Assembly: GCA_951799445.1 (NCBI GenBank)
Contig: OX637288.1
Location: 30,297,288 to 30,361,287 of the forward strand
Source of the DNA: Pseudisothecium myosuroides
Taxonomy: Eukaryota > Streptophyta > Bryopsida > Hypnales > Lembophyllaceae
Direction of reading: 5' to 3'
Length of the DNA stretch: 64,000 bases
In this document: one piece after another, positions 20,420 through 64,000 of the stretch
Numbering within the stretch: position 1 is the stretch's first letter
Layout: the number at the start of each line of letters is the position of its first letter
Program-made: the position numbers and the translations under genes
Notes under the pieces: model-generated
Told to the model about the DNA's origin: nothing
The model's input: only the letters and a program-made list of their open reading frames with translations
Database searches by the model: none

Positions 20420-20685
20420 AAGTATGTTGCTATATCAAAAAAGGATGTATTTTCTTCTATTTTTAGGCTAATGTCTAGCCTTTTTAGTCAAACACTAACA
20501 TCTTGCAATCTACATGGTGGAATTTTTGGAATTTTATTCCACATCCTCTCATACCAACATACTACAAGATCCTAGGATTGCATGTTTCCAAAAATGTTTT
20601 TTTTCTAAATTTTGGTACTTAACTAGAAATGGCAGTTTTGGAGCGGTTTTGATGAAAACATACCGTACTCAAAAAACTTCAAGGG
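20420..20685 (+). mobile_element. TTAA-flanked TIR element, family A, right part (A4)
   Basis: CATCTTGCAATCTACATGG, ACTACAAGATCCTAGGATTG and GAAATGGCAGTTTTGG align in order with the right ends of the copies at 27.1-28.0 and 55.5-56.4 kb. It ends AAAACTTCAAGGG followed by TTAA (20686-20689). The left end is not clear; it may reach about 19,871. Confidence 0.65.
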
Positions 20686-21061
20686 TTAAGTTGCGAGTGA
20701 CGGAAAATGTGATGCAATTGGAGAGTGGACCCTTCATATTCTTTAGTAAGACGTTTTGGTCAATTATTTCCATCCCATCCAAAATTATTGCTACACAGAA
20801 CCAAGTTGTCTTATTCAAAGAAGTTACTACATGACTCACTACTTGTCAAGGTTGAGGCACATATGACTCTCTAAACCGGATTGTGGACCGTTACACCAAC
20901 CCAGGCATGCCACATACAAGATTTTGGATTGATGAAAGATATTGCATCCTTATATAAGAACAATAAATATTTATATTGTGTAAAATGTTGAGAAATTAAT
21001 GAGGGACAACCTAATTTCACTATTCCGTGTAGTGATAAAATTTTAGAGCGCAAAAATAGTG

Positions 21062-21266
21062 ACATAACATTATATAACTAGGCAATGGTGTTCCCCGTGC
21101 TGTGATGGTATTATGCTTTGCTAACAAACTAGGACGGACTTACCAACCTTATTAATGAATTTAAGGATTGGGGTTGACTAAGGAGCCATAGAAGACAATT
21201 TGTTTACTAGAAGGGTCCCCTTTTCAAAGATGCAAAAGGGTCCGTTACCTCATTGGGAAACAACGT
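21062..21266 (+). repeat. Dispersed repeat, copy 1 (pair with 36.36 kb)
   Basis: The shared order with 36,358-36,575 is ACATTATATAACTAGGCAAT, GGTATTATGCTTT, GATTGGGGTTGACTAAGGAG, TCCCCTTTTCAAAGATG and AAAAGGGTCC. A MITE (21,267-21,551) lies exactly at its downstream edge and is missing from the other copy. Confidence 0.8.
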
Positions 21267-21551
21267 AAGGTAACTACACCTAAAATAGCGCAAATAAGCA
21301 ATTCAGCATGGTTCCCATTATTATATTGAAAAGTTTTTTGTGGAGTCTTGTTGGTAGTCAAAAGAAGATTCTAGAATCTCTCAGAATGCATTTTTTAGAC
21401 ACCATACAAATAAACTACAAATTTTCAAAGTGCTGAAAATAAGTTTTTCTAAAACCGACCATAGACTCCCATGAATAGTGGGAATACATTTTAGGCTAGA
21501 ATCTAGAGTGGTCGGTTTTAGAAAGCGGTCAAAATTAAGTGTAGTTACCTT
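21267..21551. mobile_element. MITE with GGTAACTACACC termini, copy 1
   Basis: It is 285 bp, with ends AAGGTAACTACACCTAAAAT and the inverse AAGTGTAGTTACCTT. Inside, TTCTAAAACCGACCATAGACT and its partial inverse GGTCGGTTTTAGAAA form a second stem. It is about as long as, and similar throughout to, 60,257-60,551 in the opposite orientation. It has no coding capacity. A clean target duplication is not visible. Confidence 0.82.
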
Positions 21552-22031
21552 CATGGACTTTCAAGAGCTCTGAACCGCCTTTCACCGCAAGTTTCAATAC
21601 GACCGAACCCTTCAGCTTGCAAATCCGGTTACTTGAACTCTGCCGGCATCTGAAATCGCGAAGCACCAATTCAAGAGCTCCAGGCCGAGTCGATCACAGA
21701 GCTTAGTCAGAAATCCGGAGCTACAAGTGTACATTCTAAGTTTACTGTGTGAGAGTGGATTCCACTGATCTGAAAGGTGGGAATGTCTAGCTTCTTGATT
21801 TCCATGACTAGTTGAGACTTAGCTCCCATGGAATTGAAATTCAGCTCGGTTATTTTGATCCAACCTGTGTTGAACTCTGAGTTCATCGAAGCAATTATAT
21901 TCCGAAACTTCTCAAGCGATTGAATTGCTTGAGTCGATCACTGAAGAGTAATCCCCAATTAACTGTGTGAATTGTTGTCCTTTTTGCAGATTCATTACAG
22001 TACTGTGTTGCGCATCGATCGATTCTCAGCG

Positions 22032-24599
22032 ATGGAACAGGTCCATTTTGGTCACTCCGTCAGCTAATTCGACATCTTGTGATGTTTTCTAATAGCTGAA
22101 CTAGGGTTACTTGCTCTGAGATGCATGTACGTACTCCTTGAAAGGTTACAGAAGTGGGATTTGCTTCGCTGTTTTCCTGCTGTAGGATGATGGAGAGAAG
22201 GTGTTCCTGTACGTCTACGACCTCACGCAAGGGATTGCTCGTCAGGTGTCGACAACTTTCCTCGGAAATACCATTGAAGCCGTCTGGTATGACGTAACTT
22301 CAATCAATCTTATTAGTTATTGAAATCTTTTTTGAAATGATCCTCCTGCTAGTTAAAGAGACTAGTGACAGTATGTATTCGTAAGACAATCAGCGAAAGT
22401 AGAAAATTGCCAAGAACTGTTATAGGAAACGTAGCTGCCCTAAACTCTGCAAATTGTAATGGCATTCTGGCAGATTCTAGCGTATGCTGTGTCAATTTCA
22501 ATACAACGTGGTTAGAGGTTCTCGAACACCTCTGCGTGATTTCTTGATTGGTGAAGTGGAGCCTTAAACTAGTACAATAGTGGGTTTCGGCAATTAGGGC
22601 TTCATGAGGGTTTAAAACGATCTGAATTGGATACAGGCACACTGGCATAGGACTGTATGGAAAGGAGTACTTCTTCGGACCCGCCATTCACAAGGTGACA
22701 ATTGGTCGCAGCCCTTTCGGAACGCCCTTGCAAGTCCTTGAGTTAGGGACCACTCACGTACCCAAGGACGTGTTCGAGGAGTATCTGCAAGGAATTGCAT
22801 CACGGTACTCGATATTCACATACAGCCTTCTGAACCGCAACTGCAACAACTTCACCGACGAAGCTGCGAAGTTCTTGGTCGGGACAGGCATTCCGGACCA
22901 CATTGTGAAGCAAGCAGACACAACTTTCGACGTCTTCCCTCTGGGAGCCACGATCTGTAAGTTTCAAACCGTCATGAAGCCCTAATTTCTTGCAGACCTC
23001 ATTTTGATGCTACCTTAAAATCCTGTTCAGTGCTAAGTTAAACTCAAATGTAGATCCCGGTTGTGGACAATCAATAGCACATGTTGAACTGCGCAAGAAT
23101 GTAATCTTTCCACAACTAGGTTCGAAGGTAGAGACTCCATTAATCACACAGCACATCAGAGGCTCCATTGGTCGTACAGGTGAGCCTTGATTTGGGCTGA
23201 TTGTGAAAAGACTTCATCTACTGACTTTTAGTTTTTTGCAATTGATTTTTAGCTTAACCCAAAATAAATGTGCAAATTTTTGGTTGGTGCAAGCTTCTCG
23301 GTTGTTGTCGGTAAAGGCTCAAAGTTCACCTGTGTGGTGAATGGAACCTCTCCCTTGCTGTATGGTGAATAGAGACTTTACATTACATAGCGAGATCCCT
23401 TCGGCAAATCTCGGCAACACTCTGAGGTACTTTGGGTTAGGATAGAACCTACAAAGAGGGATTTCAAGTGGTAATGGCTCATAGCGCCGCCCCGCTTCTT
23501 GAAAAACTGGCTATCGCATGAAGTCTATAAGCCCTTCGTTGAGATTGCGATTGGTAAGTGCGTGTCCTCTGATGTTGTTGAGGGTGTTTCTGGGGTTGTA
23601 GTGCCCATGTTGCAGCAACTGGAAACTACGCTGCGCTATGGCGGAGCCCCAGTGGCGAATTCATCACCATGGCCAAACCCTTCGGCCCCAATTAGGTCGG
23701 CGTTCAGAAGCTTTATGAACGGGGGCTCGTCTTCGTCTCCGTTTCCGACTCCGGCTCCTCCTCATGGTATGAAATGCCTTCTTCATTCTTTTTGCTAACA
23801 GAGCAACTTGCAAGCGCTGTAGCTACCTCATATGTGTGTGGAATTTCAAGTGCTCAGGTAGAGGCCTTTTGATTATGAGTGAAATGCATGCTTATGTTGA
23901 AGGAAGGAAAGTATTAGACAGATTATCGTGGTTGCCATGTAGTACGTAACACCAACCTGGAGCTTTGTTGTGGAAAATAGTACCTGCATAGGCGGCAAAG
24001 GATTTTTTTTGCCCTCAACCAGTTTCAGATTTATTGTTATTTTTTTTGAAATTGAGGATTGTATTCCAAAGTAAGGACCAGCAGTACACCACCAGCAACC
24101 AGTTCAGATTTGAGTTACCTAGCATAGTGTCAAGAGAGGTGTTAGACCTCATGACTTGTGCTCCACAATTAGCAAGTTTGTTTCCAAAATGAGCATCTTT
24201 CCTCAAAGTACTAGACCGTGGTAGAGGTTTGTAATGCGATGTTGAAATCGTCGTCTTGTATGGACGAGAGCTCTGAACAAGAAAATCTCTCGAAACTGAA
24301 TATCAGAATAGAAACCTGTTAGAGGAGAGGGATATGGCCAATATGGCAACTCTTCTTGAATTGCTGCTGCCACCTGTACATTAGAAAACTCTCAGGGAGG
24401 CTAGTACTTTGAGGAAATGCCCATATTTTCTTTTTCTTTTTCTTTTTCGTGTTCAGGAAGAGTAATCATCAAAAGTCTGCTGCTCATGATACAGATCATC
24501 GAAGGGGAAACCAGGAAAGTGGTTGAGAGGAATAAGGAGATGGTGAATTTCCGCTGTAGTCTGAATAGAGTCACTCCTTTGGACAGACTTTACAAATCT
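22032..24599 (+). CDS. PPPDE/DeSI-type isopeptidase, spliced gene
   Basis: Predicted exons are 22032-22040 (MEQ, tentative), 22186-22286, 22637-22956, 23602-23766 and a tentative 24457-24599. All junctions keep phase with GT-AG introns, and 22956 has a strong GTAAGT donor. The product belongs to the PPPDE cysteine-peptidase superfamily (desumoylating isopeptidase 1-like), a papain-fold deSUMOylating/deubiquitinating type. It contains VFLYVYDLTQGIARQ, then the split codon giving W-HTGIGLYGKEYFF with the catalytic His, VLELGTTHVPKDVFEEYL, and SLLNRNCNNFTDEAAKFL with the catalytic Cys, then GIPDHIV. Exon 4 adds a low-complexity Pro/Ser tail (PMLQQLETTLRYGG, PFPTPAPPHG). The first donor (GTCCAT) is weak. 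The terminal exon (GRVIIKSLLLMIQIIEGETR) is open through a strong donor at 24,600, so the true 3' end is unresolved. Confidence 0.88.
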
Positions 24600-24629
24600 G
24601 TAAGTACAATGTCCTCTTTACTTTAAGGT

Positions 24630-27090: not shown

Positions 27091-27094
27091 TTAA

Positions 27095-28012
27095 CCCTTC
27101 AAGTCCCAATGTCTCCTCAAGAGACAAATGGATTTTAGGCAGGCTCCTACAGTCTTAGTATTTGTTGTGATTTTTTTAATCTTTTTGTGAAGATAGAGAA
27201 ACTTGTTAGCTTTCCGAGAATATAATTTTCATTTTAAGTAGAGCCCAGGAGCAAAAGTTATGGCATAGAAAGCCCTTTTTTTAGCTCGGTGGACAAAAGA
27301 AAACTTTTAAAAAAAATTAAAATTAAAAAAATTAAAAACTGCTTCATACAAATTATATATTTATCTACATAAGAAGCTTTGATTTATTCCAATTGGATTT
27401 GTTATGTGAAAGTTATGGACAATCTTGTTTTTCAGGCAATCAGAGCATCTTTTTGAAAAAATAATTTGTTGGATTCAATTCTGAATTCAATTTTTTTAAT
27501 TTAAAAAAAAAAAAGTTTCACTTGGTTAATATCTTTTGCTAGAACAATCTCACCATTGAGATTACTGTATTTCAATTCCATCTTAAAGCTATTAACAATT
27601 TAGATTTTTCTTCAATCTTGAACCTACTTCTACTAAATAATTTTTTAATGAGTGAAAACTAATAGTTTTTTTGTTTTTTAAAATCCTAGATTCTCAATTC
27701 AATTCTTCATCACATAAAATTAGAAATTCAAAATCAATAGAACAAAAAAAATTAAGTTATGAAGGTTCAAAGCTTAATAGTGTAATAGAGCAAGGTGCAA
27801 AAAAACTCGTTTCCTTCACTTTAAATGCAAATATCTTGCAATCTGCACAATCAAAGTTTTTGAAATTTCTTCCACACATTCTTACATTAGTCTAGTACAA
27901 GATCCTATGGTTAGATATGCAAAAAAAACATTTAAATTTTTTTTTGCTCTTTGCTATAGAATGACAATTTTGAGTGTTTTTTTTATGGAAAAAGGCTTTG
28001 GGACTTTAGGGG
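27095..28012 (+). mobile_element. TTAA-flanked TIR element, family A (A1)
   Basis: It is 918 bp, bounded by TTAA at 27091-27094 and TTAA at 28013-28016. The left end is CCCTTCAAGTCCC; the right end is GGGACTTTAGGGG. The interior aligns along its length with 55,467-56,407: CAATTGGATTTGTTATG, AGAACAATCTCACCATTGAG, ATCTTGCAATCTG and CAAGATCCTATGGTTAGAT in the same order. It is non-coding. Confidence 0.85.
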
Positions 28013-28916
28013 TTAAAATTCCATTGAAATATTATTATATTTCAAAATACTGAAATTTTAATATTTTATCCAAAATGCAATATTGTATTTTATTATTCTT
28101 TCAATAATATTTGTAATTTTATATTGTCACATTCCTTGATTAATCCATGTTATTTCATGCCAATGCTAAAACTATTAGACTCCTTGTACTATTTGTTCAT
28201 TTTTTGGCTAAATTGTAGTTACAAAAATTACTAAGTGTACAAAAAAAATTTAGGCATTGTGAAAAGATGCCCTTGAGAGGAGAAAGTGAAAAGTATGAAA
28301 CTTGATGTCATAACCGCAAATCAATGATGTTATCAGTGTTATCCTATTGCAACCTAGCTTGAATGAATTTGTTTAACAACCATGCTTGAATGTTAGAAAA
28401 CTCTCATTTTATAGTCACATCAAAAAAAATTGTTGATATAGTAGAGTGAAGTCTATGAACAACAATTGAATGTAATAATCAAAAGTTATAAGAGGTCAAA
28501 ATTGAATTGATAGATTTTATAAAATTGGGCTCTAATTTCAATATCTACATAATAAACATGATGCAACAATCATCTATCTATTTATTCTCGAGGATTTTTT
28601 AAGCATGCTTTTAATGAACATGCTTTAATCCTTCATTAACCTTGAAATTAAGGGCAGAGCCTATTACCAAGGTAGTTAGCCAAAGATGATATAATTACTC
28701 GATGAATAGGTTCATTCTTTGTTTCTTAAAGAACCCTAAAAATCATTCTATTGAATCATTGGACATTCAGTTTGAGTCTTGTGTTGCATTATGCATTAAG
28801 GTCTTGCAAAACATTACAATTTACTACATGAGTTGATGTGTGCAAAAAACGGCCACCCTGGTTATAAAACTTGTTGTAGAAAGGAGCAAAAGAATACTTC
28901 AAACATATAGGGTTAA

Positions 28917-29553
28917 CTCCTAAATGCCCAAAGCCTTTTTTGAGCTTCATAGAGTTTATTCAAAATTAAACTAAAAGGACAAATTTTGATAAGTTTTATC
29001 GGTTTAAAAAAAAATTGCAATCACACAAATTCAAACTAAATGTGTTGTAGATCACATCAGAAAAGAAAACACAACAATATCATTTATGGATTGAAAGATT
29101 ATAACGTTTAATCAAGAGGGTTTCAAAACTATGAAAGTAGTTTGAAGTCTTTGTATTAACTTTTTTCATGTCAAATCTAAAATTGAGGTTATCAAATAAG
29201 CACGAAGTTAAAGTACATACCATAATCGATTTACATCTTCTCAAAATCTACTTTACAATTTTTTTAAATAAATTTTCAATGTGATTTTCTCCCCAAGATC
29301 TAATGTATTTGAGGCTCTTCTCCAAAAGCATCTAACACTAAAAAATCAAGATTTGCAACAAACACCCCTGCAATAAATTTGTCAATGGAAAAATCATGAA
29401 TAATTTTTTCCAAAATCGGATTTTTGAGTATTAAAATAGACTTTGAAGGAGACTCAACAAAAATATAATTTACCAAAAATAACACTTTGCAAATAATAAT
29501 TTGACTTCAAAGTTTAGTCAACACCAAAATATGCTTGCTTGAGCATTTAGGGG
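28917..29553 (+). mobile_element. TTAA-flanked TIR element, family B (B1)
   Basis: It is 637 bp. TTAA precedes it (28913-28916). The left end is CTCCTAAATGCCC; the right end is GAGCATTTAGGGG, followed by TAAA, so the right flank has one change from TTAA. It is an inverted match of 61,463-62,099, which is also 637 bp: CACAACAATATCATTTA, GATTGAAAGATTATAA and GATAAGTTTTATC-type blocks are shared. Confidence 0.85.
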
Positions 29554-29559
29554 TAAAAG

Positions 29560-31010: not shown

Positions 31011-33362
31011 TCAAGACACACCGATATTTGTCCTCTTCACAAACCGACCCTGCATTCCAACATCCGGAAAATGAAAAACAAGGTGAGACAACCATTGCAA
31101 GTGGTTCTGTCACAGGTCACCGTTGCTTTCCAGAACATCAAAATTTGCACAAAATTGCAACTGGCCCAGTAAAAGACTTCACCCTGGGACTTTTGTTTTC
31201 CCAAATGGGAGCTAAAACTAAAGCTACGGTAAAATGGAAAACATTCTCTGTGCTGAGTGAGAGGGTGTGTGCGCGCGTGTGTTGCTAAGTGAGCTTCTAG
31301 AAGGGGTGAGTGTATGCTAACTGACCTTCATCCGGGGTCGCCTCTCGGCATTGAGCTTCCTAACTTCGTATCTAATCTTCTTGGAAAACAGCCGACTCCG
31401 CCGTTTCTCTTTGTACCTCATCACTCTAGCTTCGCGGCCTCCGGAGCCCTCCTCCGAGGCCGCCTCATGATCATCAGCAGTGCCATCTCCTTCTGCTGGC
31501 AACCCCAAATCCGGCACTAAGCCAACGTCCTGGAGCACCACCAGAAGGCAAACAGGCCCACTTCAATACCAAAATCCAGCTAAACACGGTGCTGCTAAGA
31601 GTATGTATCTAGCCACTGTATTTCCGGCCTAACAAACTAGGACGGGCATTTGACCAGGCAAGCCCATTACCGTGGCGGCAATATTACAACACTCGGGATG
31701 GACCCACGGCTCGCCCCTACCGGACCACGCTGCGATAATTTCCTCGTAGTTGAGACGCAGCGTCGGCCGCGCCGCGGTCGCCTCGCCTTCGCCTTCTGTA
31801 CAGCAGCGCAGAATCTCTCGCGCTTCGCTCTTGATGATCTCGGGACTCCACGATGCAGATGCGGGCTTCGACTTCGGCTTCGTCACGAAGTACTTCGCGA
31901 ATGGGCCCGTGGCGAAATGATCAGCTTCTACTACATTCTTCGACGCAAGTGTTCCTGCAGTCAGCGAGAATCACGGCGTTAGCACTCTAACAATCACCCT
32001 TGCCGCATTGCAATGGATCTTTCGCATGCCGTGCATGTTGGAAATGACGGAATTCCACGCTCTGGTACGTGGTCCTGTCAAGATAATAATAGAATCCTAA
32101 TCTGCTACAGGGAGGTTCCATGGTTGCACTAGTAAGACTGTTATGATCGATTCCATGGCTTCGACTAACATCAATCTGAACCCGGATTAATGGATATATA
32201 TCAGTATGACTGGTTTCTGCTACATGAAAGTGTTGATGTATGCACTACCAGAGTGACAGGGCTGTCAGCAAAATGTGAACATGGAAAGTCTGCATTAGAG
32301 GGGGGTGCATGCTGAACTAGTACACCACTATATTGTTGGTGTGTTTGGGCCTTTCCCTTCCCAAGCCCCACATTGGTAGTAGAATATCATCAAATGGAAA
32401 TACAATTATGAGTGCTACGCGGACAACAAAGTGGTGGTGGTGGTGTTACCTGTGCGATCTCCCTCAAAGGCCTCCGCCGCGCCGCGGAGTGCGAGGTCGA
32501 AGCTCAAGCTGCAGTCATCAAAAGCCTCCAAGCCCGGAATATCTCCCGGGACAAAGCAGGCGTCGCCCGCGAGAGAGATATTCCCATCTGCGTCGCAACA
32601 AATGATATCAATCCCAGTGGGCACGAGTCCAAGCTCATCCGCCATCCCGTGCTCGTCCTCTGGGACGACAAGCCCAAACTGGACATGATCATCCTGAGCG
32701 GCTTTCCCTTTGAAACAAGACGCGAAGGAGGAATCCTCGGGAGAACCCACGCCGTGAAAGCTTTCCGGGGAGAAACAAGTTGCACTCCCGGGTGAGTCCA
32801 GCGGTGAGTCTAGCGGCGAATACTCGTAGCTCGAGCCTGGCGACGTGGGCAAGTCGGTGATGAGCGAGGGGACTTCTTGCGGGTGGTCGATGAGGAAATC
32901 CTCCGTGTCGAATGAATCGGGGAACAGGCTGGTATTGTCCTCCACCTTGACGTGCACGATTTCGGGACCTTGGTGTTGGGCTTGGGCGCGCGGCGGGCGG
33001 TGCGGGTGAGGGCGACTGGTGCGCGTGCGCTTGCGCGCGGGCAGCACTTGCGGTGGCGGATTGTGACTGTGATGATGAGCAGGCTTCGTGAGCTTCGTGA
33101 GCTTGGTGGGATTCGGGGATTCTGAGAGTTCCCCGCCGAGAGACTTCATTGGGGCGCCCGTGGGCGTGAGCCGCACGCGCTCGTGCCGCTGCGCGAGCGA
33201 GTTCGCGCTGTGCACCTGCGTGTCGCAGCGATCGCACAGAAACGCCGCGTCCGCAGCGCAGTACCAGCCCGCGCTCTTGCTAGCGCACACGTCGCACGCG
33301 CGCGAGGCGCGGCTGGCTATCGCCATTGCGGTCGTGGCCACCGTCGCTGCCTTCGTCGCCAT
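31011..33362 (-). CDS. COL: CONSTANS-like B-box/CCT transcription factor, four exons
   Basis: Exons on the minus strand are 33362-32450, 31954-31671, 31529-31326 and 31049-31011. All introns (495, 141 and 276 bp) are GT-AG and phases match (1, 0, 0). Total CDS is 1,440 bases, 479 residues. Exon 1 has one B-box ([20 protein letters not shown], then [19 protein letters not shown]) near residues 23-67, a basic/His-rich linker and an acidic middle region ([14 protein letters not shown]). Exon 2 holds the conserved [20 protein letters not shown] block of COL proteins. Exon 3 holds the CCT core ([37 protein letters not shown]), and the 13-codon exon 4 finishes it with [15 protein letters not shown] binds DNA/NF-Y in the nucleus; family roles are photoperiod and light signalling. 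There is no second B-box. Exon 1 is much more GC-rich than its surroundings. No break seen. Confidence 0.95.
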
Positions 33363-36185: not shown

Positions 36186-36187
36186 GT

Positions 36188-36286
36188 TGAAAAGATATTC
36201 TTGAGAGAACGAAAAGAATGATATTTTTGAAAGAATGAAAAGATATTCTTGAAAGAATGAATAGATATTCTTGAAAGAATGAGATG
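36188..36286. repeat. 26-bp tandem repeat, about 4 copies
   Basis: AAAAGATATTCTTGAAAGAATG-like units repeat with an internal small palindrome (ATTCTTGAAAGAAT). Confidence 0.75.
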
Positions 36287-36357
36287 GTGTCACATCTTCT
36301 CAATCAACAATAAAGAATCATTTTTTTTGGAAGTGGATACTTGCATCCTCGTGTGAA

Positions 36358-41590: not shown

Positions 41591-42391
41591 TCTCTAAGGG
41601 ACCAAGTGTTACTTGTAGGTTTGGGCAAGTTCATATGATTTCAATTTTTGGCATGATTATTTGAAACATTTTATAAAGAAAGAATTACACATTTGCTTTC
41701 TCAGAATATAATTTTAATTTCAATCGGTGCCCGGGTGCGACAATCATACTATCCAAAGCTCAAAAAATAGTTTTTCGGGTAGCACAAAAAAATCACAAAA
41801 TTTGTAAACTTTTATTTCTCATTTGAAAATATTTTTGTCTATGAAGCTTTTATTCATTCCATTTGCACTAGCAATGAAAAAGTTATAGAGAGTCTTGTTT
41901 TCAAGCAATTTGAGCATCTTCTTGGAAAAAAACCCTTACAAGATTCATTAAATTGAACTCAATTTCTACAATTTAAAAAGAAATGCATAGAATTTAGTTT
42001 GCTTGCTATATATAGGAATCTTTGAAAATCATACCTACCTATAAACTTAAACTCCTCATAACTTTTGACTCATTGATCGGAATTGAATGATTCAAAGCTT
42101 TCCACGTATATATAAATCTAAAGAATCAATTTCAGTTTTTTATTTTTATTTTTTAAAAAATTTAAAGAATTTTTTTGAGCTGCCCAGGCTGCCCAAAGTT
42201 CAAAGAAAATCACATATCATGCAATAACTTTTTACCTATGTGGTTAAAAGTTACGAAAATTGTTGGGCCTTAAAGCTACTCCTCGGGCACATGTTGTGTT
42301 AAATTTTCAAAGAAAAAAAAAACTCCATTCGTAGTGAGCTGCCCAAAATCGCTATGTTGCCAAAAAAAACCGCAGCTTGATCCTTTAAGGG
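41591..42391 (+). mobile_element. TTAA-type TIR element, family A-like (A3)
   Basis: The left end is TCTCTAAGGGACC and the right end GATCCTTTAAGGG, then TTAA (42,392-42,395). The interior has GAAAAAGTTATAGAGAGTC and TTTGAGCATCTTCTTGG as in family A. Its right half (GGCTGCCCAAAG, CAATAACTTTTTACCTATG, CGTAGTGAGCTGCC) is an inverted match of 63,725-64,000. Confidence 0.7.
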
Positions 42392-42916
42392 TTAAGTCAA
42401 TCCAGTAATCAAGAACAACCCTAATTCCATCTATCATTCAATTCCGACATCAAGTGGACCCTCCCATTTGCGTCAAGTCACCCATTACCATAATCTTAGC
42501 AACCCTTGAACATCATGACAATACTTCGGGAGGGGACATATCGTTTAGCATGAGTCTACCCACGCATTACCAATTTAGTCCCAACAAACTTTGAAAAATT
42601 ACAAATTATTCATTTCTTGTCCGAATGTCTTGATGCTACTTGCAAATGGCTTCTCTCAAAACTTCTCAATCCGTGAGTTGACAAACAGCTAGTCTCCAAG
42701 GCACCACCCAGAACGCAAAATCCGCTTGGTGATCGGCATGTTTACCTTAATTGGAACTAACTTAATCTCCGTCAGATGCAGATTTCAACGCCCGATGCAT
42801 CGAGTCCTCACACCCACCGGCTGACACCATATCCAACGGATCACACTTGCAGCAATGCGCCCACGGATGACCCAGGCGATGCCATCGGCTGACTACTACA
42901 ACCAGGGTCCACTGGT

Positions 42917-45156: not shown

Positions 45157-45971
45157 GGCTGAAATTTTTTAATTTCTATTGAATTCGGCTTGGCTTCTTG
45201 GCCTCAAGGCCTTTACATACGGAAAAACTGACCTCTATTATAATCTTATTTTAATGAGAAGCTGAGGATGGCGTCCAATCCAAAAGGGGATGATATTTTG
45301 TGCAATTAGCCTAAAGGAAAATTGGCTAGGTCTCTAGGTGTAAAGCAGAGCTTAGCTAACCTAGAGTAGCATGCTATGCCATGTCTCTCTTGCTATGCCT
45401 TAATTACATTTGCTCCAACCAAACAACCTTCCCATCTATAGTTATAGAATTGGATAAATGTAAATTTGATACAATAGAATGCGAATGCTTCAAGGAAGTT
45501 ATTTTGTACTTACCTTTGCTTTAGAATTGGGGTCTAATTCTCCAACTTGGACGATGTGCTCAAAAATCGGCAAAATAGTCTAAGGTGGGAAACAAGAGGG
45601 TTACCTTATTTGAAACAAGGAGCTTACCCATCCAACAATGGAACTCCGAACAACACTTAATAAGTGTCTTTAGAGCATCCATCTTGTTGCAAGGATAGTG
45701 CACACGATGCAAATATTTTTTCCACCGCGGAGATTAGCACCCCTATCTGTATTACTCTTTTAGTTTGGAGTTAAACCATTTTTTCTAGCATGGCTCACAA
45801 CATGTTAACTTTTATTTGGAGTTGAACAGCATTCTTAAATACATTGATAGAAGTAGTGACAGTCATTGCGCAATCATTGAAAGTGGATTTCATGACACTT
45901 TGTGCTTAAGTGGGATGTTTTTGCTTTTGCGGGTATGCCTCAAATGGAAACTCTCGCCTATCCATTATTAA

Positions 45972-46685
45972 GTCCTTCAGGACCAAGATCATTTTTTTTT
46001 GTCAAAAACCACTTAAAATTGCCAATTCTGTTGCTTTCACTGAAGAAAGCAAGAAAAACATTTTCTTAGAATATAACCATAAGATCTTGTACTTCACTTG
46101 TGTGGGATCATGTGGTAAAAAATCCCATGAAGTTTGACCATACAAATTGGAAGATATTAGCATTCAAAGTTGGAAAAAAATAAATTTGAATGCTGACATG
46201 CAATTTAAGATGACTTTGACATCCATTTGTGGAAAATTGTACTATATACTTTGAATTTTTTTTTAAATTGTGTTGAAGAATTTAATTAAAACTCTAGGAA
46301 AAAAATTCAAAAAACACACAATTGATTTGCATTCATTAAAATATTGTTAAATAGAAGTAGGTCTAAGATTGAAAGAAAACTAAATTGTTGATAGCTCTAA
46401 GATGGGATTGAAACACAATAATCCAAATGGTGAAATTGTTTTAGCAAACAAATTTAAGCTTGTCAAAAACAAACTTGAAAAATTGTGAAAATTGCATTTA
46501 GAAATGAATCCCATCAGTTATTTTTTTAAGAAGATGCTTAGATTGCTTGAAAAACAAGATTGTCCTTAACTTTCTCATTACTAGTTTAAATAAAATGAAT
46601 CAAAGCTTCACACGTAGACAAAAAATTAATAAAACTTGCCCAAATCCTTCAAGAATTATTAGGGGACATTTGAGACTCTAGTCGC
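45972..46685 (-). mobile_element. TTAA-type TIR element, family A inverted (A5)
   Basis: TTAA (45,968-45,971) precedes GTCCTTCAGGACC. Read in reverse, the interior matches A1 and A2: CCAAATGGTGAAATTGTTTT is the inverse of the ACAATCTCACCATT block, and GGAAGATATTAGCATTC the inverse of the ATCTTGCAATCTG region. The far end is degraded near 46,685. Confidence 0.7.
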
Positions 46686-46776
46686 TAAACCGTCCTCATA
46701 TAATATCTACAACTTTAGATGTGGTGCTCTAGGATTGTAAAATAGAATTTTCATTGAATAGTTTTGGGTCTTTTAA

Positions 46777-47336
46777 CCCCTAAACGACCATGAGTGCAAT
46801 TTTGAACAAAGAGTATATAAAAACACATCCCAAACTTACAAAAATGCGTTTTTTCATCCATCATTTTATTTCATAGACTTTTGCGTTTGTTCTTTAACAT
46901 TTTTACATTATAGGTTTTGAAGATTTTGCTTTGCAAATATTCAATTATTCAAAGGATATTGGTAGTCTAGCCTCAAAAAGTAACTTTTTCAATTAAAAAA
47001 ATCACCCTTGAAAAATGACTTGAATCAGAAAAGAAATGAAAAATCTTGAAAAATCACTATGATTAGAACTTAATATTTTGAATTTATAGATTTTTTACAA
47101 AGTTTGTAAATATTCAATCTATAATCAATAAAAGAAGAATTTTTCAATTTTGTCTTCAAATTTTTTTATAAAATATTGGTTTGTATATTTGTTGATCTAA
47201 CCGTATAGATGTGGTTTATAAATCATATTTTACCACTATTGTTTGAGAGTCATCATTAAAATATTTTTCTAAATTGCATTTTATAATAGATCTTCACAAT
47301 TTTGGAAATTTGGACGACCCCTTGGTCCTTTAGGAA
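46777..47336 (+). mobile_element. TTAA-flanked TIR element, family C (C1)
   Basis: It is 560 bp, with TTAA at 46,773-46,776 and 47,337-47,340. The left end is CCCCTAAACGACC; the right end is GGTCCTTTAGGAA. The last 170 bases match C2 (GATCTAACCGTATAGATG, TAAATTGCATTTTATAATAG, TTCACAATTTTGG). Confidence 0.85.
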
Positions 47337-47894
47337 TTAAAGGTACTCCAAGCACGTACATACAGGACACTCTAAGGTTTCTTCAACTTTTGTCTATAAA
47401 AGATTACAAAAATCTCCTTCTAAAAAAGATATAATAGTAAATCATTATTTTAAAAAAATTTAATTAATATACAAGTGAAAAAAAATCCGAAAGTGTAAGT
47501 TTGATTCTATTTATCTATATATCAATGTTAAAAATTTTGAGTCTTTCTACCTTAAAGACAATTGTTCACTTTTTAAAAACATCTATATCATTTTCAAGGA
47601 ATCTCTTAAGATAGATTTTATTTGATTACTTTAGTATGAAAATTAATCCACATAAGCATTAAGGACATGAAGAGATGGGGGGGGGATAGTGTAGAATGAC
47701 ATACTCATAACATTGTTTACCAATAAGGCATAAGTCTCTTTTGCGTCCTTGGAAAGGGCCCCCTCTAGTGAACAAAATTTTCTTATATGATTTTCCAGCC
47801 ACCCAATCCTAGAAATATCCGCTACTCTCTCCATTCCACTAAAAACCTCAGCAAATTGGAAATAGTACGTATACCACTAAAAAGGCTCTATATA

Positions 47895-48004
47895 TTGATT
47901 TTGATCATTTTTTCATTGAGCAAGTGATGTTGAATTTTTGGAATTAATTGGGCCCTCGGGAATTTCTTTGAATTCCACAGTGCTTGCTCAATGATCAAAA
48001 TCAA
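47895..48004. repeat. Hairpin repeat
   Basis: TTGATTTTGATCATT...TTGAGCAAG is inverted as CTTGCTCAATGATCAAAATC; the inner loop also pairs partly (TTTTTGGAATT with AATTTCTTTGAATTCC). Confidence 0.7.
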
Positions 48005-48009
48005 CAAGA

Positions 48010-49583: not shown

Positions 49584-49587
49584 TTAA

Positions 49588-50363
49588 TCCCTAAAGAACC
49601 AAGTGTTTGTTCAACGGACATTCAATTGGAAGTTTGGGTAGGTTCATACAAAGTCATTTTTTAATCTTGTAAGAATGGGTTGGTCATCGCAAAAAATCAT
49701 CCTTTTTTGGTACGGTATTGTGAATCATCTACTAAAACAACAACTCATTGAAGGGCTGAAAACTATTGTGTAAGATCTTTTTTTTGCACACAATCACAAG
49801 GATGAACATTTCCACTTTTGTGTTATATGGAATGATTCTCTATCATCCATCGAATGGCATTACAAGATTACTGAACCTTTTTGACAAAATCTATGGGCGT
49901 ATTCCTTCAATGATAATACAAGTTTTTTTTATTCCAATTGGGTGCCTAAATAAAAAATTATAGTGCCCAAGATTTCTTGGTCAAGGCATGCAACTTCAAG
50001 CAGCATGTGCAAAACATGTCTTCTACTTCTGAAACTTGCCAAGTATGTAACTTATATGATATTGCGTGCAATTGTCTAAAAAAAATTACCAGGTGTAGTA
50101 TTAAATTTTCACCCTAAGTGGACTTAAAAGTCTCTTGACCTTGTCAATCAAGGTTGGGAAGCTTCTAACTTCAAATGCTACAATCGTTCAATCTATGTAG
50201 TCAAAGTTTATAACTTTTTTCGCCAAAGATTTCCATGGTAACCAAATATAATTTTGTACGGTTTAATTTTTTTTAAGCTTTAATTTTTAATTTTTTCCTC
50301 ATTGATCTAGAAAGTGAAAGTTTTTGACAATTTCTATCCAAAATGTACCTGGTCCTATAAAAG
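49588..50363 (+). mobile_element. TTAA-flanked TIR element (unassigned family)
   Basis: It is 776 bp, with TTAA at 49,584-49,587 and 50,364-50,367. The left end is TCCCTAAAGAACCAAG; the right end is ACCTGGTCCTATAAAAG. A further left end (TCCCATAAAGGACC after TTAA, 50,567-50,570) begins another element whose right end I could not find. Confidence 0.7.
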
Positions 50364-50570
50364 TTAAACTATGAGTAGATAATCATTATCATGTCAAAAT
50401 GTGCAATCCAAGTATGGTTTAAGGACTTGGTTTTAGAAGCTTTTAATATACTTTTTATTTACCTTGTTCATTTACTCTATATCAAAGTGAATTGCAATCA
50501 CTTTTAAATTATCAATTATAAAGAAATAACTAAGATATACTAACAAAGGCAATTATATTCATTGGTTTAA

Positions 50571-53500: not shown

Positions 53501-53710
53501 TAATAAAATCAGCCTTGAAATCCATTTTGAATTTTCAAATGTTATGTCCTGGTTCATTGGATCAAAATCATTTCAATAATTGTAAATACCAAATAATGTA
53601 AGCACTGCTTCTAGTCCATATTGATTAGTAATGGGCTCCAAATGGGCATTAGATTGGACTCTTCATTGACCAATTCCATTGATATTGTGCCCATGTTGCA
53701 CCCCATTCCA
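50571..53710. other. Gene-free AT-rich stretch
   Basis: No coding region. 51,865-51,985 is an almost pure A/T block of AAAATTTAAATTTTTAAA-type runs. About 52,570-52,640 resembles the repeat at 0.99-1.06 kb (TTTGGACCTCATTTAAGCAT). Confidence 0.5.
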
Positions 53711-53714
53711 TTAA

Positions 53715-54282
53715 CCCTGGAGCGCTCCGACGTCCATTTTCTGGACGATGAACAGATTCAGATCCTTGTTTCTGTCTCATTCCTGTTTGGATGAAAGTCA
53801 TCTTAATTTTTGGTGATACTTTATCAAGTTGTTGTCCTATCCATCGGTTGGATTTGGTGTACTAGAATATATACATTTCTAAAATTACAAATGTGGAAGT
53901 ATGTCAAGTGGTCAATTTGCATTGACTTTAGTTCAAAACTAGATGTGTAAAAATGAGGTCAAAGATGTAAAGGTCACAAAAATTTCAAAAAATCACCATA
54001 TGAAGAGAACCTTATTTCAAATCCATTCCAACAAGTTTTACTCAAAAAATGATAATATTTTACTTGTAATTGAATTTAGAAGGAATTCTGAAATTTTCTT
54101 TTCAAAATTTATAGAAAAAGATTGGTGATAGCATTAGTAGATCTAACTGTATGGATAGAATTTAAAAATCAAAATCTACAGCTTTCATTTGTATACCAAT
54201 TCCAAAATATTCTTCCAAATTGTAGTTTATAATGGTTTTTCTCAAATCGTCAATTTTGGAGATGAATCCAGACGTTTAGGGG
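53715..54282 (+). mobile_element. TTAA-flanked TIR element, family C (C2)
   Basis: It is 568 bp, with TTAA at 53,711-53,714 and 54,283-54,286. The left end CCCTGGAGCGCTCC is unusual and GC-rich, with its own palindrome (GGAGCGCTCC). The right end is CAGACGTTTAGGGG. It is homologous to C1 at the right end. Confidence 0.82.
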
Positions 54283-54289
54283 TTAAGTT

Positions 54290-55462: not shown

Positions 55463-55466
55463 CTAA

Positions 55467-56407
55467 CCCCTAAAGGACCGGCATGCGTTTTTTGGCCGTA
55501 TAGAAATTTTGGGCAGGTCCATGTGACTAGAGATTTCCATATTTTAAGCTGAAATTTTAATAGAAGGTGGGCGCGAGGAATATCTTTCATATGCACTAAA
55601 TTTCAGCACATTTAGAAATAGGAGTCAAAAGTTATGGCCAAATATGTTACTTTTTCCCGTAACTAGGCAGTCCGGGCAGCAAGAAAAATTTGGCAAAATT
55701 TGATTTTTTTTTTTTAATATTTTTTTTCTTGTAGACTATATTTTTGTCTATCAGGAAAGCTTTGATTCATTTCATTTGGATTTGTTATGAAAAAGTTATG
55801 GACATTCTTGTTTTTCGGGCAATTAAAGCATCTTCTTGAAAAAAATAACTTGTAGGATGCATTTCTAAATGCTATTTTTGCAATTTAAATAAATAAATAA
55901 ATTCTCATGGTTTAGTTTACTTGCTAGAACAATCTCACCATTGGGATTAGTGTATTTTAATTCCATCTAAAATTTTTTATTAATGTTTTAGATTTTCCTT
56001 CTATCTCGTACTTACTTCTACTTAATAAATTTTTTAGGAATGATAATTAAGTTTTTTTGGATATTTTTTTTTTCCCTAGACTCTCAACTCAATTCTCCAC
56101 TATAAAGATTTGAAGCACAAAACTCTGTAGTGCAAAAATTTTAAGTGAAAAATGTTTAAAGTCAAAAAATCTAGTCCCGCAATGTGCTGAAATACTTGGT
56201 TTTTCCACTTTAAACGCAGATATCTTGCAATCTGAGCGGTCAAAAATTCTGAAATTTTTTCCACACATTCTCATACTAGTTAGGTGTAAGATCCTACGGT
56301 TAGATGTGGAAAAAAAAAAAACATTTTTCAAATTTTTTTACTCCTTGCTATAGAAATGGCAGTTTTGATGGTTTTTTGGCAGAAAAAAAGTCTTGGGCCT
56401 TTAGGGG
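55467..56407 (+). mobile_element. CTAA-flanked TIR element, family A (A2)
   Basis: It is 941 bp, flanked on both sides by CTAA (55,463-55,466 and 56,408-56,411). The left end is CCCCTAAAGGACC; the right end is GGGCCTTTAGGGG, a 13-base inverted repeat with one mismatch. The interior is collinear with A1. It is the best-preserved pair of termini in the window. Confidence 0.88.
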
Positions 56408-56411
56408 CTAA

Positions 56412-58680: not shown

Positions 58681-58684
58681 GCAT

Positions 58685-58880
58685 TGAGCCTATAATATAG
58701 GTACCTATAATATAGATACCACACACTATAGAAGGTGTATGTATCATAAACACCTATAATATGGGTATTTGTAACATATATACTCTATAATTATAGACAA
58801 TTTCTATTATATATACACCTATAACATAGGTGTGCAGTATTCAAGGCTCATGGGCTCATACTCCTATGCTCACGTAATAG
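58685..58880. repeat. Degenerate CCTATAATATAGGT repeat
   Basis: Palindromic units such as ACCTATAATATAGGT and ACCTATAACATAGGT recur several times. A related stretch with ATACCTATATTATAGATA lies at 63,538-63,600. Confidence 0.65.
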
Positions 58881-59829
58881 CAACCCTCGAGGACCATCGT
58901 AGCACTTTTTTTTTTTTGCATTGGAATAGGGGAGTCCAAAAATAGAAATAGTATCATTAAGTTGTCCTACCTTATTAGGATGTCTCATTACTAATGAATT
59001 CAAAAAAATTCATAAAAACTCAAAAAATGCTCCATTCCATTCTTTTGTTTGCTGCATGGAAAACCTTTTATATATAATTGTGCCCTTGAAATAGACTTTG
59101 TAATCTTTAGAAATGAATTATAAAATATGCTACTATATTGAGCATAATCCCTCTCCCCTAAAATTCTTGTTTTCAAGGCCAAAAAATGGTTCAAAGATTC
59201 TTATGATCTTTCCACCATTGAATCTTTCATTAACTTAGGCTAGATGTTTGGTACATGTGTTGAAAAGGAATTTGTATAGTTAATACTATTTTCAATGTCT
59301 TCATATCTTTTTGCCACAATTTAGATATATAGGTTAATAAAAATCAATGCAGTTAAGCTACATTTCAATGGGAAGTGAACTTAATTTAGTCAAAAGTATA
59401 GGGTAATGCAATTGCATAAAATGTAGAGACATTAGGAGTGCAAATGTGTACATTGAGATAGAAAAGAATAGTTTTGAAACAATCAGCATTCATTGGTTTT
59501 AAGTTTCAAGCGATGTCTTTATATGTCTCTAAATAAAGCTTTTAGAGAATCATTATAGTGACATAAGAATTCTATTGCAACAAATTAGGATTACAAAGGT
59601 TAAAAATAGTCCGCCCTTATTATCTACAATGGAAGACCATATACTTATAGCATATTTTTAATAGAATAGACAAGGATTTTTTGTATATATACTCTTCAAC
59701 TCAAAGATCTATCATTAAATTTCTTTTTTATGAACCTTACTCTAAACAATGACCAAAAATGACAACCTTGGGTAAAGTAGGAAGTTTACTTAAAGTGCTC
59801 AAGTTCTACAATCACCTACCTCCTCAAAT

Positions 59830-60245
59830 ATTCACTCTTTTTACATGTTGCTTTTTCATTGTACCAACAATGTACAAATAGTGTACATTTGAGGAGGTGG
59901 GCGATTTTAGAGCTCTATGCCATTTCAAGTTTAGAATTTCATAATTAGTTCCACAAAGCTCCAAAAAATATGAAACAACTTGGGTTAGATGCCAATTCCA
60001 TTTGTCTTTCAAGGAAAATTTACCGAATAATATTTCAAGAAGTTTCACCTCCCCAAGTGGTTGCTTTTAGTGACTCTTGTGTTTCAATTTTAAAAATTTG
60101 TAACTAATTTCACGAAGGCCCAAAAAATATGAAACAACTTGCGTTAGATGCCAATTCCTTTTTTCTTCCTACAAAAATATATTGAAAACTATTTCAAGGA
60201 TTTTAGCTTCCCCCCAAAGGCAATCAGCTCTTAAATGGTCACTTT
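59830..60245. repeat. Dispersed repeat with internal tandem duplication
   Basis: CAAAAAATATGAAACAACTT and GTTAGATGCCAATTCC occur twice about 160 bp apart. A single-copy relative is at 38,755-39,003. Confidence 0.75.
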
Positions 60246-60256
60246 AAGAGCAGAGC

Positions 60257-60551
60257 AAGGTAACTACACCCAATTTCGACCCCATTCGGAAGCCAACCCC
60301 TATAGATTCTTGCCTAAAATGTACTCCCACTATTCATAAGAGTCTAAGGACGGTTTTGGAAACACCTATCACCAACACTTTGAATATTCATAGTTTATTC
60401 ATACAATGTCCAAAAAATGCATTCTCAAAGAATCTAAAATCCCCTTTGGACTAACATTAAGATCCCACAAAAAAAATTCCAACATAATAATGAGAACCAT
60501 GCTGAAATCAGCTAAATTGCTTGAACGATTGATTTTAGGTGTAGTTACCTT
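60257..60551. mobile_element. MITE with GGTAACTACACC termini, copy 2
   Basis: It is 295 bp, an inverted copy of 21,267-21,551. It starts AAGGTAACTACACCCAATTT and ends TTTTAGGTGTAGTTACCTT. Shared interior (in reverse) includes TCAGCATGGTTCTCATTATT, GAGAATGCATTTTTT and ATGAATAGTGGGAGTACATT. Confidence 0.82.
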
Positions 60552-61462
60552 ACCTTGTATCTTCTGTAGGTACTTGATGTTGCAATACTATTCCCTATTA
60601 AGGTAAAAACACCCAAAAGCGTCCCTGCTCCCATTCATGTACCCTAGAGGTTCACTAAATGTATCCTAGACATTTGTTAATGTGTCCTACAAATGTTTAA
60701 CTCTAATTTGTTGATGAATTTGAAGGACACATTTTGAATTTTGATTCGTTGACTGCTGAATTCTGCAGATTTTGGTTCAGGGTGCACCTATGTGACAATT
60801 TTAGTGGCTTAGGGAGTCGGCACTTTGAAAAATCATAGAAATTGCATAGCACATCCGAAAAATCTTTTTTTTTTTTTTTTTGTGAATATTCATGATTTTC
60901 GCTCGCTAATACTACAAAAATATTATATTTAGGAAAAGATACCTCCAACTATGCTGAATTGCTAATATTGTCAGTTTTGGGTGTTTCCACCCTAGTATAC
61001 CAATAAATATATATACATATATACATATATATACTGTTCTATACTACTCCATTATATACACTTACAATGGGTCAGGTACATTATAAGTTTTGGATTCAAG
61101 TTTTGCGTGTGCTGCATGTGAATGACAAGAGTACCATGCAAGTGCCTGCAGCCAGCATTTGTCAATGGCTTCCAAATGCTCCAAAATGTACTGACCAGAG
61201 ACATTGATGAGAGGAGCCACCAGGGCAGCAAAACACTGATGAGTCATTCAAGTGGAATAGGAATTCAGGCAGTGGAGAGAAACTGAGCTCATAATCTTCT
61301 TCTAATTGTTGGTGGGGGGCGGTCTATACCACAATGAAATTGTTAAATCATATTGAATTTCCTCTGCAATGAAATTCCGTTTCATTTGTGCCCAAAAAAA
61401 AGAAGGGAAAATCATAATGAATAGTATTGCTGTTGTGTGAATTTATTCTAAAGGTGTCTTAA

Positions 61463-62099
61463 CTCCTAAATGCCCAAGGCACCCAAATGTGGTATCGAAG
61501 AAACTTTGAAATTAAATAAAACCTTATCAAATTGCTATTTATAGTAGTTTATATTTTTGAAAGATTATTTTCGAAGTCAAGTTTTAGCATCAAAAATCCG
61601 ATTTTGAAAATGAATGATTATGATTTTTCTATTCAAGGTTTTGTGCAAAGGTATCTATTGCAATCTTGACTTTTCGTGGTGTTGAGGGCTCTTGGAAATG
61701 AGCCTCAAATACACTAGATCTTGGAGAAAAAATCACACTAGAAATTCATTTAAAAAAATTGTAGAGTAGATTTTGAGAAGTCATAAATTGATTGGGGTTA
61801 TATTTGTTAAGCCCTTCAACCTCATATTTTTTTGGTCTTCAACTTTTTAGATTTGAGATGCAAAAAGAGAGCTTAAAGATTTTCATAGTTTTAACACCCT
61901 AATGATTAAATATTATAATCTTTCAATCCTTAAATGATATTGTTGTGTTTTCTTTTCCTATGTGATCTCTAACATAACTAGTTTGAATTTGTATGGTTCC
62001 AATTCAAAAAAAATTGATTCAACTTATCAAAATGTTGGCTTTTTGTTCAATTTAGAGCAAATTCCAAGAGGCTCAAAACAGGCCTTGGGCATTTTGGGG
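61463..62099 (-). mobile_element. TTAA-flanked TIR element, family B (B2)
   Basis: It is 637 bp, with TTAA at 61,459-61,462 and 62,100-62,103. The left end is CTCCTAAATGCCCAAGG; the right end is CCTTGGGCATTTTGGGG. It is an inverted copy of B1 (28,917-29,553) of the same length. Confidence 0.88.
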
Positions 62100-62177
62100 T
62101 TAAAAATACGTGTGCCTACTTGAACCCTCTATCCAAAATTATTTTTGTTTTAAATTCAGTAAATTCTACATTCTTAA

Positions 62178-62405
62178 CCCCTCAAGTTCCAAGGCCATTT
62201 TTTCATTAAAAGTCACTCAATTTTCAATGTGAACAACATAAATAGTTTAATTTTAAGTATATTTTTTTGCATATCCAACCTTGGGATCTTGCATTATACT
62301 AACAGAAAATGTTTGTAAGAAATTTCAGAAACTTTGACTATATAGATCACGAGATATAAGTGTCTAAAAGTTTTTTAAAAAAAAAGCACTTTTGTCCGGT
62401 TGCAA
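62178..62405 (-). mobile_element. Family A element, inverted fragment
   Basis: TTAA (62,174-62,177) then CCCCTCAAGTTCC. The interior GCATATCCAACCTTGGGATC and TTTCAGAAACTTTGACTATA is the reverse of the A1 right end. The other end was not found. Confidence 0.6.
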
Positions 62406-62796
62406 GACAAATGAAATGAACGAAGGGATCAATCAACATTGTTCGTTCTTATTTTTGGCATCTCTTTGACTACTGCTCGATTAGAGACGAAGCTCTGAAA
62501 GGTGGAAAAAATGTTCACACATACTCTTGGATCTATATATAATGCCCACGAAATGACAACCTCACACTCAACAATTAAATGCCCATTGGTGCTCTTTGAA
62601 AATGCCCCCGAAATTCCACTTTTCAATACTCTAAAACCACACTTTGAAAAGGATTCCCAAACTCAAAGTTTCAAGGACACTTTGGAGTGCACCAAACTCT
62701 ACTTGTACTGCAAAAAAGGGTATTTTAAATGTCATTTTTAGCCTTAATCCGGAACATTTTGTCCACCAAGAAGATCATTTTGGGATAGAAAATTAA

Positions 62797-63335
62797 CCCT
62801 TCAAATTCCTTGAATATATTTGACCCAAAAACGCTCGAAAATTGCCATTTTGAGCACACAATTATTAAATTTTAGGAAAAAAACAAACATTTTTGGATAC
62901 ATCTAACCGTAAGATCTTGTAGTAAGCTGGTTTGAGAAGATGCGGAAAAAATTTCAGAAATTTCCACCGTGTGGATTGCAAGATATTAGCGTTTGAATTG
63001 TCAATTTTTTTTTTTACCTTCGAAAAATCGGGCAGCTACACTTTACAAGCTCACATTTGTACAAATCCTTCTACATAGACATTGATATAATCTAATTTTT
63101 TTTTAAGAAGAAGTTATTTCAGTTATTTTTTTTGTTATTCGCCCTTGCATGTTTGGGATTTATTGTTATTGTAACATAATTTTTGCTCCCAAGCACCAAT
63201 TGAAATGGAAATTATATTCCTAAAAAGCCAATCAATTTTTCTATCGTGAGAAAAAAACTCAAAAAAACTTGCCAAAAATTGAAATAATAGGCACCTAACT
63301 GAACCTTTAAGAGTCCCTTGAGGGACTTTGGGGAC
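62797..63335 (-). mobile_element. Family A element, inverted and shortened
   Basis: TTAA (62,793-62,796) then CCCTTCAAATTCC. ATCTAACCGTAAGATCTTGT and ATTGCAAGATATTAGCG match the A right end in reverse. The far end (near GGGACTTTGGGGAC, about 63,335) is approximate. Confidence 0.65.
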
Positions 63336-63724
63336 TTTATGAAAGATGGAAGTGATTTAGACTTGGTTTAATTCTATTTTTTTGGTATTGACCTTCAAAA
63401 ACAACAACTACCTCGTTTTTTTGACTTTTTGACCGATTTTTGAAATTCAATTATACAACTTGTCCATTTTGGTGCTCTTTATCTCGTATCATTTATGAAG
63501 ATTGCTAGTATCCAAGTCTAGAATCTTGAGTCCATGAGCCTAAATACCTATATTATAGATATCTATGTTATAGATACTTTCAATGGTTGTAGGATACCTA
63601 TTTACACCTAAGTTCAAGGCTTGTAGGCTTGCACTTACAAGCTCAAATGCTAACGTTGCTAGTCATTTATAGTCTAACATTAAACAAATTCATTACCTTA
63701 GCATCCTTCCATCTAGTTTTTTAA

Positions 63725-64000
63725 ACCCCTAAATGGCCAAACACCGTTTTCTAGCAACACTGATAGCAATTTTGAACAGCTCACTACGAACGGAATTTTT
63801 GTTTCTTTTATTTGAAATTTTCACACAACATGGGGACAAGGTTTTTCTTTAAGGCCCAACAATTTTCATAACTTTTGACTACATGGGTAAAAAGTTATTG
63901 TATAATATGTAACTTTTTTTTCAACTGGGCAGTCCGCATAGATAAAAAAAATCACTTTTTTTCATGAACAAAAATTTGAAATTGGTTTCCAAGATGTTTA
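63725..64000 (-). mobile_element. TTAA-type TIR element, cut by the window edge
   Basis: TTAA at 63,721-63,724 precedes ACCCCTAAATGGCC. The interior is the reverse of 42,120-42,391 (GAACAGCTCACTACGAACGG, TGGGTAAAAAGTTATTGTAT). It runs off the right end of the window. Confidence 0.65.

Follow-up and report, generated by a model that had tools for sequence, protein, structure and literature searches.

piggyBac is known chiefly from animals. The piggyBac of Trichoplusia ni (PDB 6x67/6x68) has a DDE_Tnp_1_7 core with three catalytic aspartates (DDD), C-terminal cysteine pairs, CCC-type tips, a TTAA target and a palindrome at one end, centred near bp 25, and piggyBat (9c0f) is its counterpart from a bat. 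In this study, we analysed a window of 64 kb from the moss Pseudisothecium myosuroides (contig OX637288.1, positions 30,297,288 to 30,361,287), in which an earlier note had reported many short, non-coding elements with CCC/GGG ends, and we are nearly certain that these elements, resident in a moss genome, are non-autonomous and belong to the piggyBac superfamily. The moss elements are like piggyBac in all the features named above. They are unlike it in their host, a moss, and in their size, since full-length moss elements measure 5.0–6.2 kb and, in two of their families (A and B, below), have frames of 895–1091 codons with a long N-terminal stretch, whereas the piggyBac PDB chain has 594 residues.

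The label "piggyBac in plants" is not new. In the accessible text of earlier papers, PiggyBac stands among the angiosperm superfamilies of miniature inverted-repeat transposable elements (MITEs) grouped by terminal inverted repeat (TIR) and target-site duplication (PMC10004981), a fern assembly is credited with 1,230 PiggyBac-labelled repeats, or 0.00% (PMC6890710), and in later papers PiggyBac is again counted with the plant superfamilies or the angiosperm MITEs (PMC10794571, PMC4438587). The available portion of a 2008 survey has only five other cut-and-paste superfamilies described in plants (PMC2528002), and the available portion of another paper has the piggyBac tool yet to be tested in Physcomitrella (PMC5505980). 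The parts of these sources open to us give no autonomous partner or empty site for the plant repeats so labelled, whereas both are given here. Among the papers listed in our literature search, which lay largely outside subscription journals and was read partly in incomplete texts, none described piggyBac from a moss. What we did not find reported is an intact, multi-lineage and apparently recently active moss piggyBac set with short derivatives. It is an abundant new member of the superfamily, apparently active in recent times, and the sequence-level features that we tested were all present in it. It is ordinary in kind and unusual in host and scale.

Tips, target sites and empty sites

The five elements that the earlier note had named as flanked by TTAA, with coordinates given as the first base after TTAA, all carry it on both sides (27091–28016, 46773–47340, 49584–50367, 53711–54286 and 61459–62103), and CTAA stands on both sides of a sixth, at 55463–56411, as had also been claimed. 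The count of "at least ten" elements was right as well, with extra one-ended or degraded copies or tips at 28913, 41379, 42395, 45968, 62174, 62793 and 63726. An end was counted when TTAA or CTAA (or the complement) adjoined a tip with at most four mismatches to CCCCTAAAGGNCC. By this rule, the whole window held 8 left and 9 right ends, against means of 0.63 left (maximum 2) and 0.97 right (maximum 5) in 30 simulated first-order Markov sequences.

The genome searched comprises 388 Mb in 222 contigs, and the window is part of contig C2, which measures 50 Mb. The exact tip CCCCTAAAGGNCC occurred 19,348 times (9,696 + 9,652), and the backward-read control pattern 17 times. TTAA preceded 17,392 of the tips (8,734 + 8,658; 89.9%) and none of the controls, and the background frequency of TTAA in the retrieved sequence was 0.47%. 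Among tips with at most one mismatch in the 262 kb of retrieved sequence, 29 of 35 followed TTAA, or 8 of 14 without the loci L009–L019 of the autonomous families A and B described below. The flanks of genome-wide copies, which the earlier note had asked to see tabulated, therefore do not refute its claim. For the element at 46773–47340, which represents the short family M2, 2,783 candidate copies were found genome-wide, and the 40 of these that were scored lay on ten large contigs. The element matched itself at 100% and the others at 82–84%, and 31 of the 40, itself included, aligned end to end. TTAA was present at both ends in 11 of 12 retrieved M2 copies, the exception (L030) having decayed ends.

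The first flank base was other than T in 778 exact tips, and among 100 of these listed, 31 read ATAA, 23 CTAA and 19 GTAA. By the positions of their tips alone, two pairs on contig C1, 0.85 and 0.94 kb end to end, were read as flanked by CTAG on both sides. The non-canonical target sites of piggyBac include CTAA, TTAG and TAAA, according to the available text of one study (PMC3983033), and the CTAA-flanked element of the window fits them. First-base decay of TTAA would likewise give such flanks, and a single tip does not separate the two causes.

Empty sites were sought in the retrieved sequence with joined-flank queries, in sets of 18 and 24 that both included the six window elements. Seven sites gave a match across the junction, of which three were clean (B_L019, L031 and L028) and four were not (A_L010, A_L011, L038 and L039); the remaining queries had no spanning match in that sequence. 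This also holds for the six window elements, for which the whole genome was not searched. When the flanks of the B copy at L019 were joined at one TTAA, 1,634 candidates were found, of which 40 were scored; all 40 matched across the junction at 94–97%, and 10 of 10 retrieved copies of this target repeat held one TTAA without a gap, with two more in L016 and L010. At L031, an M2 copy within a copy of the short family M1, five of seven spanning matches held a single TTAA, one of them being the window's own 55463 element, and the other two read TTGA and TAAA. At L028, within a tandem array, three of the four matches, inside its own locus, held one TTAA. The expectation of a single TTAA in empty sites was thus borne out for one autonomous (10/10) and one non-autonomous (5/7) insertion, and the four sites that were not clean were unclear or contrary.

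Filled sites alone cannot separate TTAA from the end of a TIR, and with 89.9% of tips carrying TTAA, one might suppose that these bases are merely part of the inverted repeat (TTAACCCCTAAAGG), with another target duplication or none. We consider the chance of this very small. The empty copies of the B_L019 target repeat hold TTAA once and in place, and CTAA on both sides of one window element and CTAG on both sides of the two C1 pairs mean that the four bases follow the target and not the element.

Some arrangements of the copies were also noted. Their flanks place the M2 elements at L031 and L039 within M1 elements, so some M2 movement took place after M1 had spread. Adjoining elements share one TTAA at L014:2818, L007:147-150 and C1:2383160-2383189, where one was inserted at the flanking TTAA of the other. 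Outward-facing GTAA tips lie 4.2 kb apart at both C1:9234574/9238834 and C1:39604612/39608827, perhaps as a composite repeat.

Autonomous partners and their transposase

The PF13843 (DDE_Tnp_1_7, piggyBac) profile gave 898 candidates in the genome, of which 116 were scored; all rows shown were above the cut-off, and the best E-value was 1.7e-83. The matches were spread over all contigs C1–C11, and contamination is accordingly an unlikely source of the autonomous copies. Twenty loci were retrieved for study. Family A has 5 copies of 5.4 kb, four of which match the first at 99.93–99.98%, and family B has 6 copies of 5.6 kb, five of which match the first at 99.98–100%. The limits of these elements were set by alignment as the points where identity ends, with TTAA not assumed, and TTAA was found on both sides of 11/11 copies. 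The tips are CCCCTCAGGGCC in A and CCCCTAAACGACC / CCCCTAAATGTCC in B, so that short TIRs beginning CCC are present in the autonomous elements too.

The short copies compared with each other are only about 70–85% alike and so are old. The window elements might then be real relics of a piggyBac superfamily long dead in the moss, and the near-identical A and B copies might be segmental or assembly duplicates. We believe this to be very unlikely. The 11 copies lie on different chromosomes (C1–C5, C8–C10) with different flanks, and their near-identity over 5.4–5.6 kb stops at TTAA, whereas the duplication of a larger segment would reach past the limits of the element.

Around the transposase of nine further loci, a TTAA-bounded inverted tip pair was found in eight, where TTAA/CTAA was part of the search rule (L020–L028) and is not independent evidence for TTAA; the pairing was weak in L020 and L025 (9 and 10 of 13 bases). 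Two of these loci carry the tip of the window elements. L022 has CCCCTAAAGGACC at both ends, and L023 has CCCCTAAAGGACC at its right end and CCCCTAAAGGACT, one base off, at its left. The window element at 55463–56411 matches L023 over 226 bp at one end (76%) and 217 bp at the other (73%). It is best read, from this sequence match, as a relative, shortened by internal deletion, of an L023-like element, because both ends are common to L023. The autonomous partner that the earlier note had called for was therefore found, and it encodes a DDE_Tnp_1_7 transposase. The left tip of the window element at 46773 also matches the left tip of family B over 13 bp, probably by chance, because other copies of the 46773 family mostly read CCCCTAAAGGACC or CCCCTTAAGGACC.

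The open frames of A and B, read from stop to stop, have 895–1091 codons (901 in the A copy at L010 and 1,091 in B). The E-values with PF13843 were 1.8e-84 for A, 2.6e-76 for B and 7.2e-83 for L006. In the PDB sequence search, the matches were piggyBat 9c0f and piggyBac 6x67, with all others at E 0.028–1. piggyBat was the best for both A (E 2.7e-37) and B (E 8.8e-32); it is unlike them in having 578 residues, and the Foldseek alignments of P0001, a homologue of the moss transposases, gave 21–22% identity to it. The catalytic triad of piggyBac is named as D268, D346 and D447 in the accessible text of its structural description (PMC7351741). The corresponding aspartates stand in VDE 568, TDNFF 647 and RGVD 759 in A and in VDE 760, TDRFF 839 and RGVD 950 in B, and they align with the core of piggyBat and homologues at homologous places. 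Two CxxC pairs were found by pattern near the C-terminus in A, B, L022, L023, L024, L025, L026 and L028; the profile search of the transposases gave no match to a cysteine-rich domain profile.

The fold was judged on a model of P0001, which is 45% identical and comes from outside this genome. Foldseek placed 6x67 first (E 5.6e-30), followed by 9c0f (4.9e-25) and then Tn5 (2.6e-06). The mean predicted local distance difference test score (pLDDT) of this model was 61.6; the core was confident, and the N-terminal 400 residues mostly were not. In A and B, the long N-terminal stretch is rich in G/R and acidic residues. In residues 195–239 of P0001, the model predicts three strands plus a helix (block mean pLDDT 30–48), and the name "chromo-like" for this predicted module is only a lead. 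Upstream of the transposase, A (L010:1991-2764) and B (L016:2265-3107) have a conserved segment with 35% identity over 94 residues (E 8e-19), for which all profile search matches were below the cut-off. We take it as a putative 5′ exon.

In a tree of 59 rows, which left out L021, L027, P0010, P0087 and P0094, nine moss transposases and 27 further proteins shared one side of a branch with a Shimodaira–Hasegawa-like approximate likelihood ratio test (SH-aLRT) value of 100, and two insect rows fell on the other side. Among the matches to the transposases, no close relative with a named organism was found; the named matches were insects at 32% identity or less.

Subterminal palindrome and proposed movement

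In piggyBac, the cysteine-rich domain binds as a dimer to a palindrome that spans bp 17–33 of one end and has its centre near bp 25, as the available text states (PMC7351741). In this study, symmetry was scored at every centre in 32 ends of 16 elements, with L021 (no pair) and the copies L029–L040 left out. The peak fell exactly at bp 25, where the mean for the better of the two ends was 4.94 of 7, compared with 2.54 over all centres. In 300 shuffled sets, the peak was at most 3.69 whatever the centre, and 0/300 reached the observed value. A score of at least 5 was found at exactly one end in 10 of 16 elements and at both ends in none. Such palindromes include GAGGACAgaatgTGTCCTC in the right end of B, CGAGGACAgaaagTGTCCTCG in the left end of L024 and CGTCCATTTTCTGGACG in the left end of the window element at 53711. 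The arm lengths and the scoring window were chosen after examples had been seen and are partly post hoc, and the position was not tuned.

The full-length elements of 5.0–6.2 kb carry the gene for a DDD transposase whose C-terminal region is rich in cysteine. We propose that this protein pairs both ends through the TIRs at the tips and the one-sided palindrome at about bp 15–35. It would then excise the element and insert it at TTAA, so that every copy comes to be flanked by TTAA on either side. The short elements, which have the ends and lack the gene, would move in trans. We infer from the sequences that the transposase is functional, that the short elements are mobilised by it and that its excision is footprint-free. 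What the sequences show directly is the common ends, the TTAA specificity, some single-TTAA empty sites, the homology of the transposase, the fold of its homologue and the near-identical copies on several chromosomes.

Several observations weigh against assigning the window elements to piggyBac. Of all exact tips, 1,956/19,348 were not preceded by TTAA, a share that decay and the non-canonical targets known for piggyBac could account for, and the C1 tip pair 6110354/6111278 had ATAA before each tip and no direct repeat. At A_L011, the paralogues carry CAAA instead of TTAA (2/2, about 78% identity); L039 differs from 7/7 spanning copies by 6 bases; and the paralogues of A_L010 and L038 are ambiguous. 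No TTAA-flanked TIR pair was found in L021. Six of the 16 elements scored, namely L023 and five from the window, lack the centre-25 palindrome, so that only 53711 of the six window elements has one with a score of at least 5. Finally, M2 and the third short family, M3, had no long match to any retrieved autonomous element.

As M2 and M3 share only their tips with these elements, the short elements could belong to another TTAA-using superfamily, either Tourist/PIF with a TTA/TAA duplication or one not yet described, with the piggyBac transposases as unrelated bystanders. This is extremely unlikely in our view. The CCCCTAAAGGACC tips and TTAA flanks occur on autonomous elements with a PF13843 transposase, the two ends of window 55463–56411 are homologous to those of L023 over 217–228 bp, and the clean empty sites hold one TTAA, so that four bases were duplicated and not three. 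PIF/Harbinger (Tourist MITE), with its 3-bp TTA/TAA duplication, was rejected, since the window elements have four-base TTAA/CTAA on both sides and TTAA is single when the site is empty. The undescribed TTAA-targeting group, which the earlier note had kept as an alternative, is not needed, as the partners encode DDE_Tnp_1_7 transposases. The other half of that proposal, a non-autonomous piggyBac-like identity, is supported by the flanks of the tips, the empty sites of some insertions and the piggyBac transposase partners with the window's tip.

Window elements and their meaning

By sequence, the window holds at least three short families, namely M1 (27091, 55463 and parts at 41801–42395 and 45968), M2 (46773 and 53711) and M3 (28913 and 61459), with 49584 and the one-ended copies outside them. 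The M1 element at 27091..28016 measures 926 bp, is flanked by TTAA on both sides and matches window 55463–56411 and a copy at L026:901-1827; its left end contains a 17-bp palindrome, bp 16–32 from the tip. The M1 element at 55463..56411 (949 bp, plus strand) has perfect CCCCTAAAGGNCC tips between its two CTAA copies. Degraded M1-type copies lie on the minus strand at 41801..42395, with a single TTAA-bearing end at 42392–42395, and at 45968..46630, where the initial 289 bp align at 78% with the outermost 291 bp of the autonomous L023. M2 is represented by 46773..47340 (568 bp, plus strand) and by the divergent relative at 53711..54286 (576 bp), both with TTAA on either side; the latter has a left-end palindrome at bp 17–33 and a left tip that is a poor TIR match. 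The M3 elements at 28913..29557 and 61459..62103 both measure 645 bp, and the first is 74% identical to window 62103–61459. The second has TTAA on both sides, and the first has it on the left, the right end GGGGTAAAA having lost it. The element at 49584..50367 (784 bp, TTAA on both sides) has a weak right TIR, its tip at 50367 being a poor match.

Three further copies, all on the plus strand, show a left end: the partial elements 62174..62357 with TTAACCCCTCAAGTTCC and 62793..63018 with TTAACCCTTCAAATTCC followed by M1-like sequence at 62877–63018, and 63726..64000 with CCCCTAAATGGCC and the flank TAAA, which runs past the end of the window. Element-matching sequence makes up about 7.2 of 64 kb of the window (11%), a figure that may be too high because part of it falls in repeats common to the autonomous loci.

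The window also contains a CONSTANS-like B-box zinc-finger gene (32421–33362, minus strand), whose best named relatives are from Ceratodon purpureus (57%) and Physcomitrium patens (50%), and Ty1/copia-like retrotransposon frames (3900–9200, minus strand) with zinc knuckle, integrase, reverse transcriptase and RNase H, named by eye. No Rfam family over threshold and no tRNA were found in the 64 kb.

To our knowledge, there are plant repeat pipelines without a piggyBac class, and such pipelines would miss or mislabel elements of this kind. We tentatively suggest, at somewhat less than an even chance, that mosses hold a long-resident and still moving piggyBac radiation of their own, with several lineages. 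In this radiation, the N-terminal gain (the G/R-rich stretch and perhaps a small chromo-like module of beta-beta-beta-alpha form) together with the upstream A/B segment could steer insertion to particular chromatin, and the short derivatives could have become a major share of the genome. The insect piggyBac enzyme is now used for precise marker excision, as the accessible part of one paper reports (PMC10905368). If our reading is true, a native high-copy moss piggyBac would supply a transposase and ends adapted to plants for the same purpose, and the silencing of a TTAA-targeting element by a plant would become testable.

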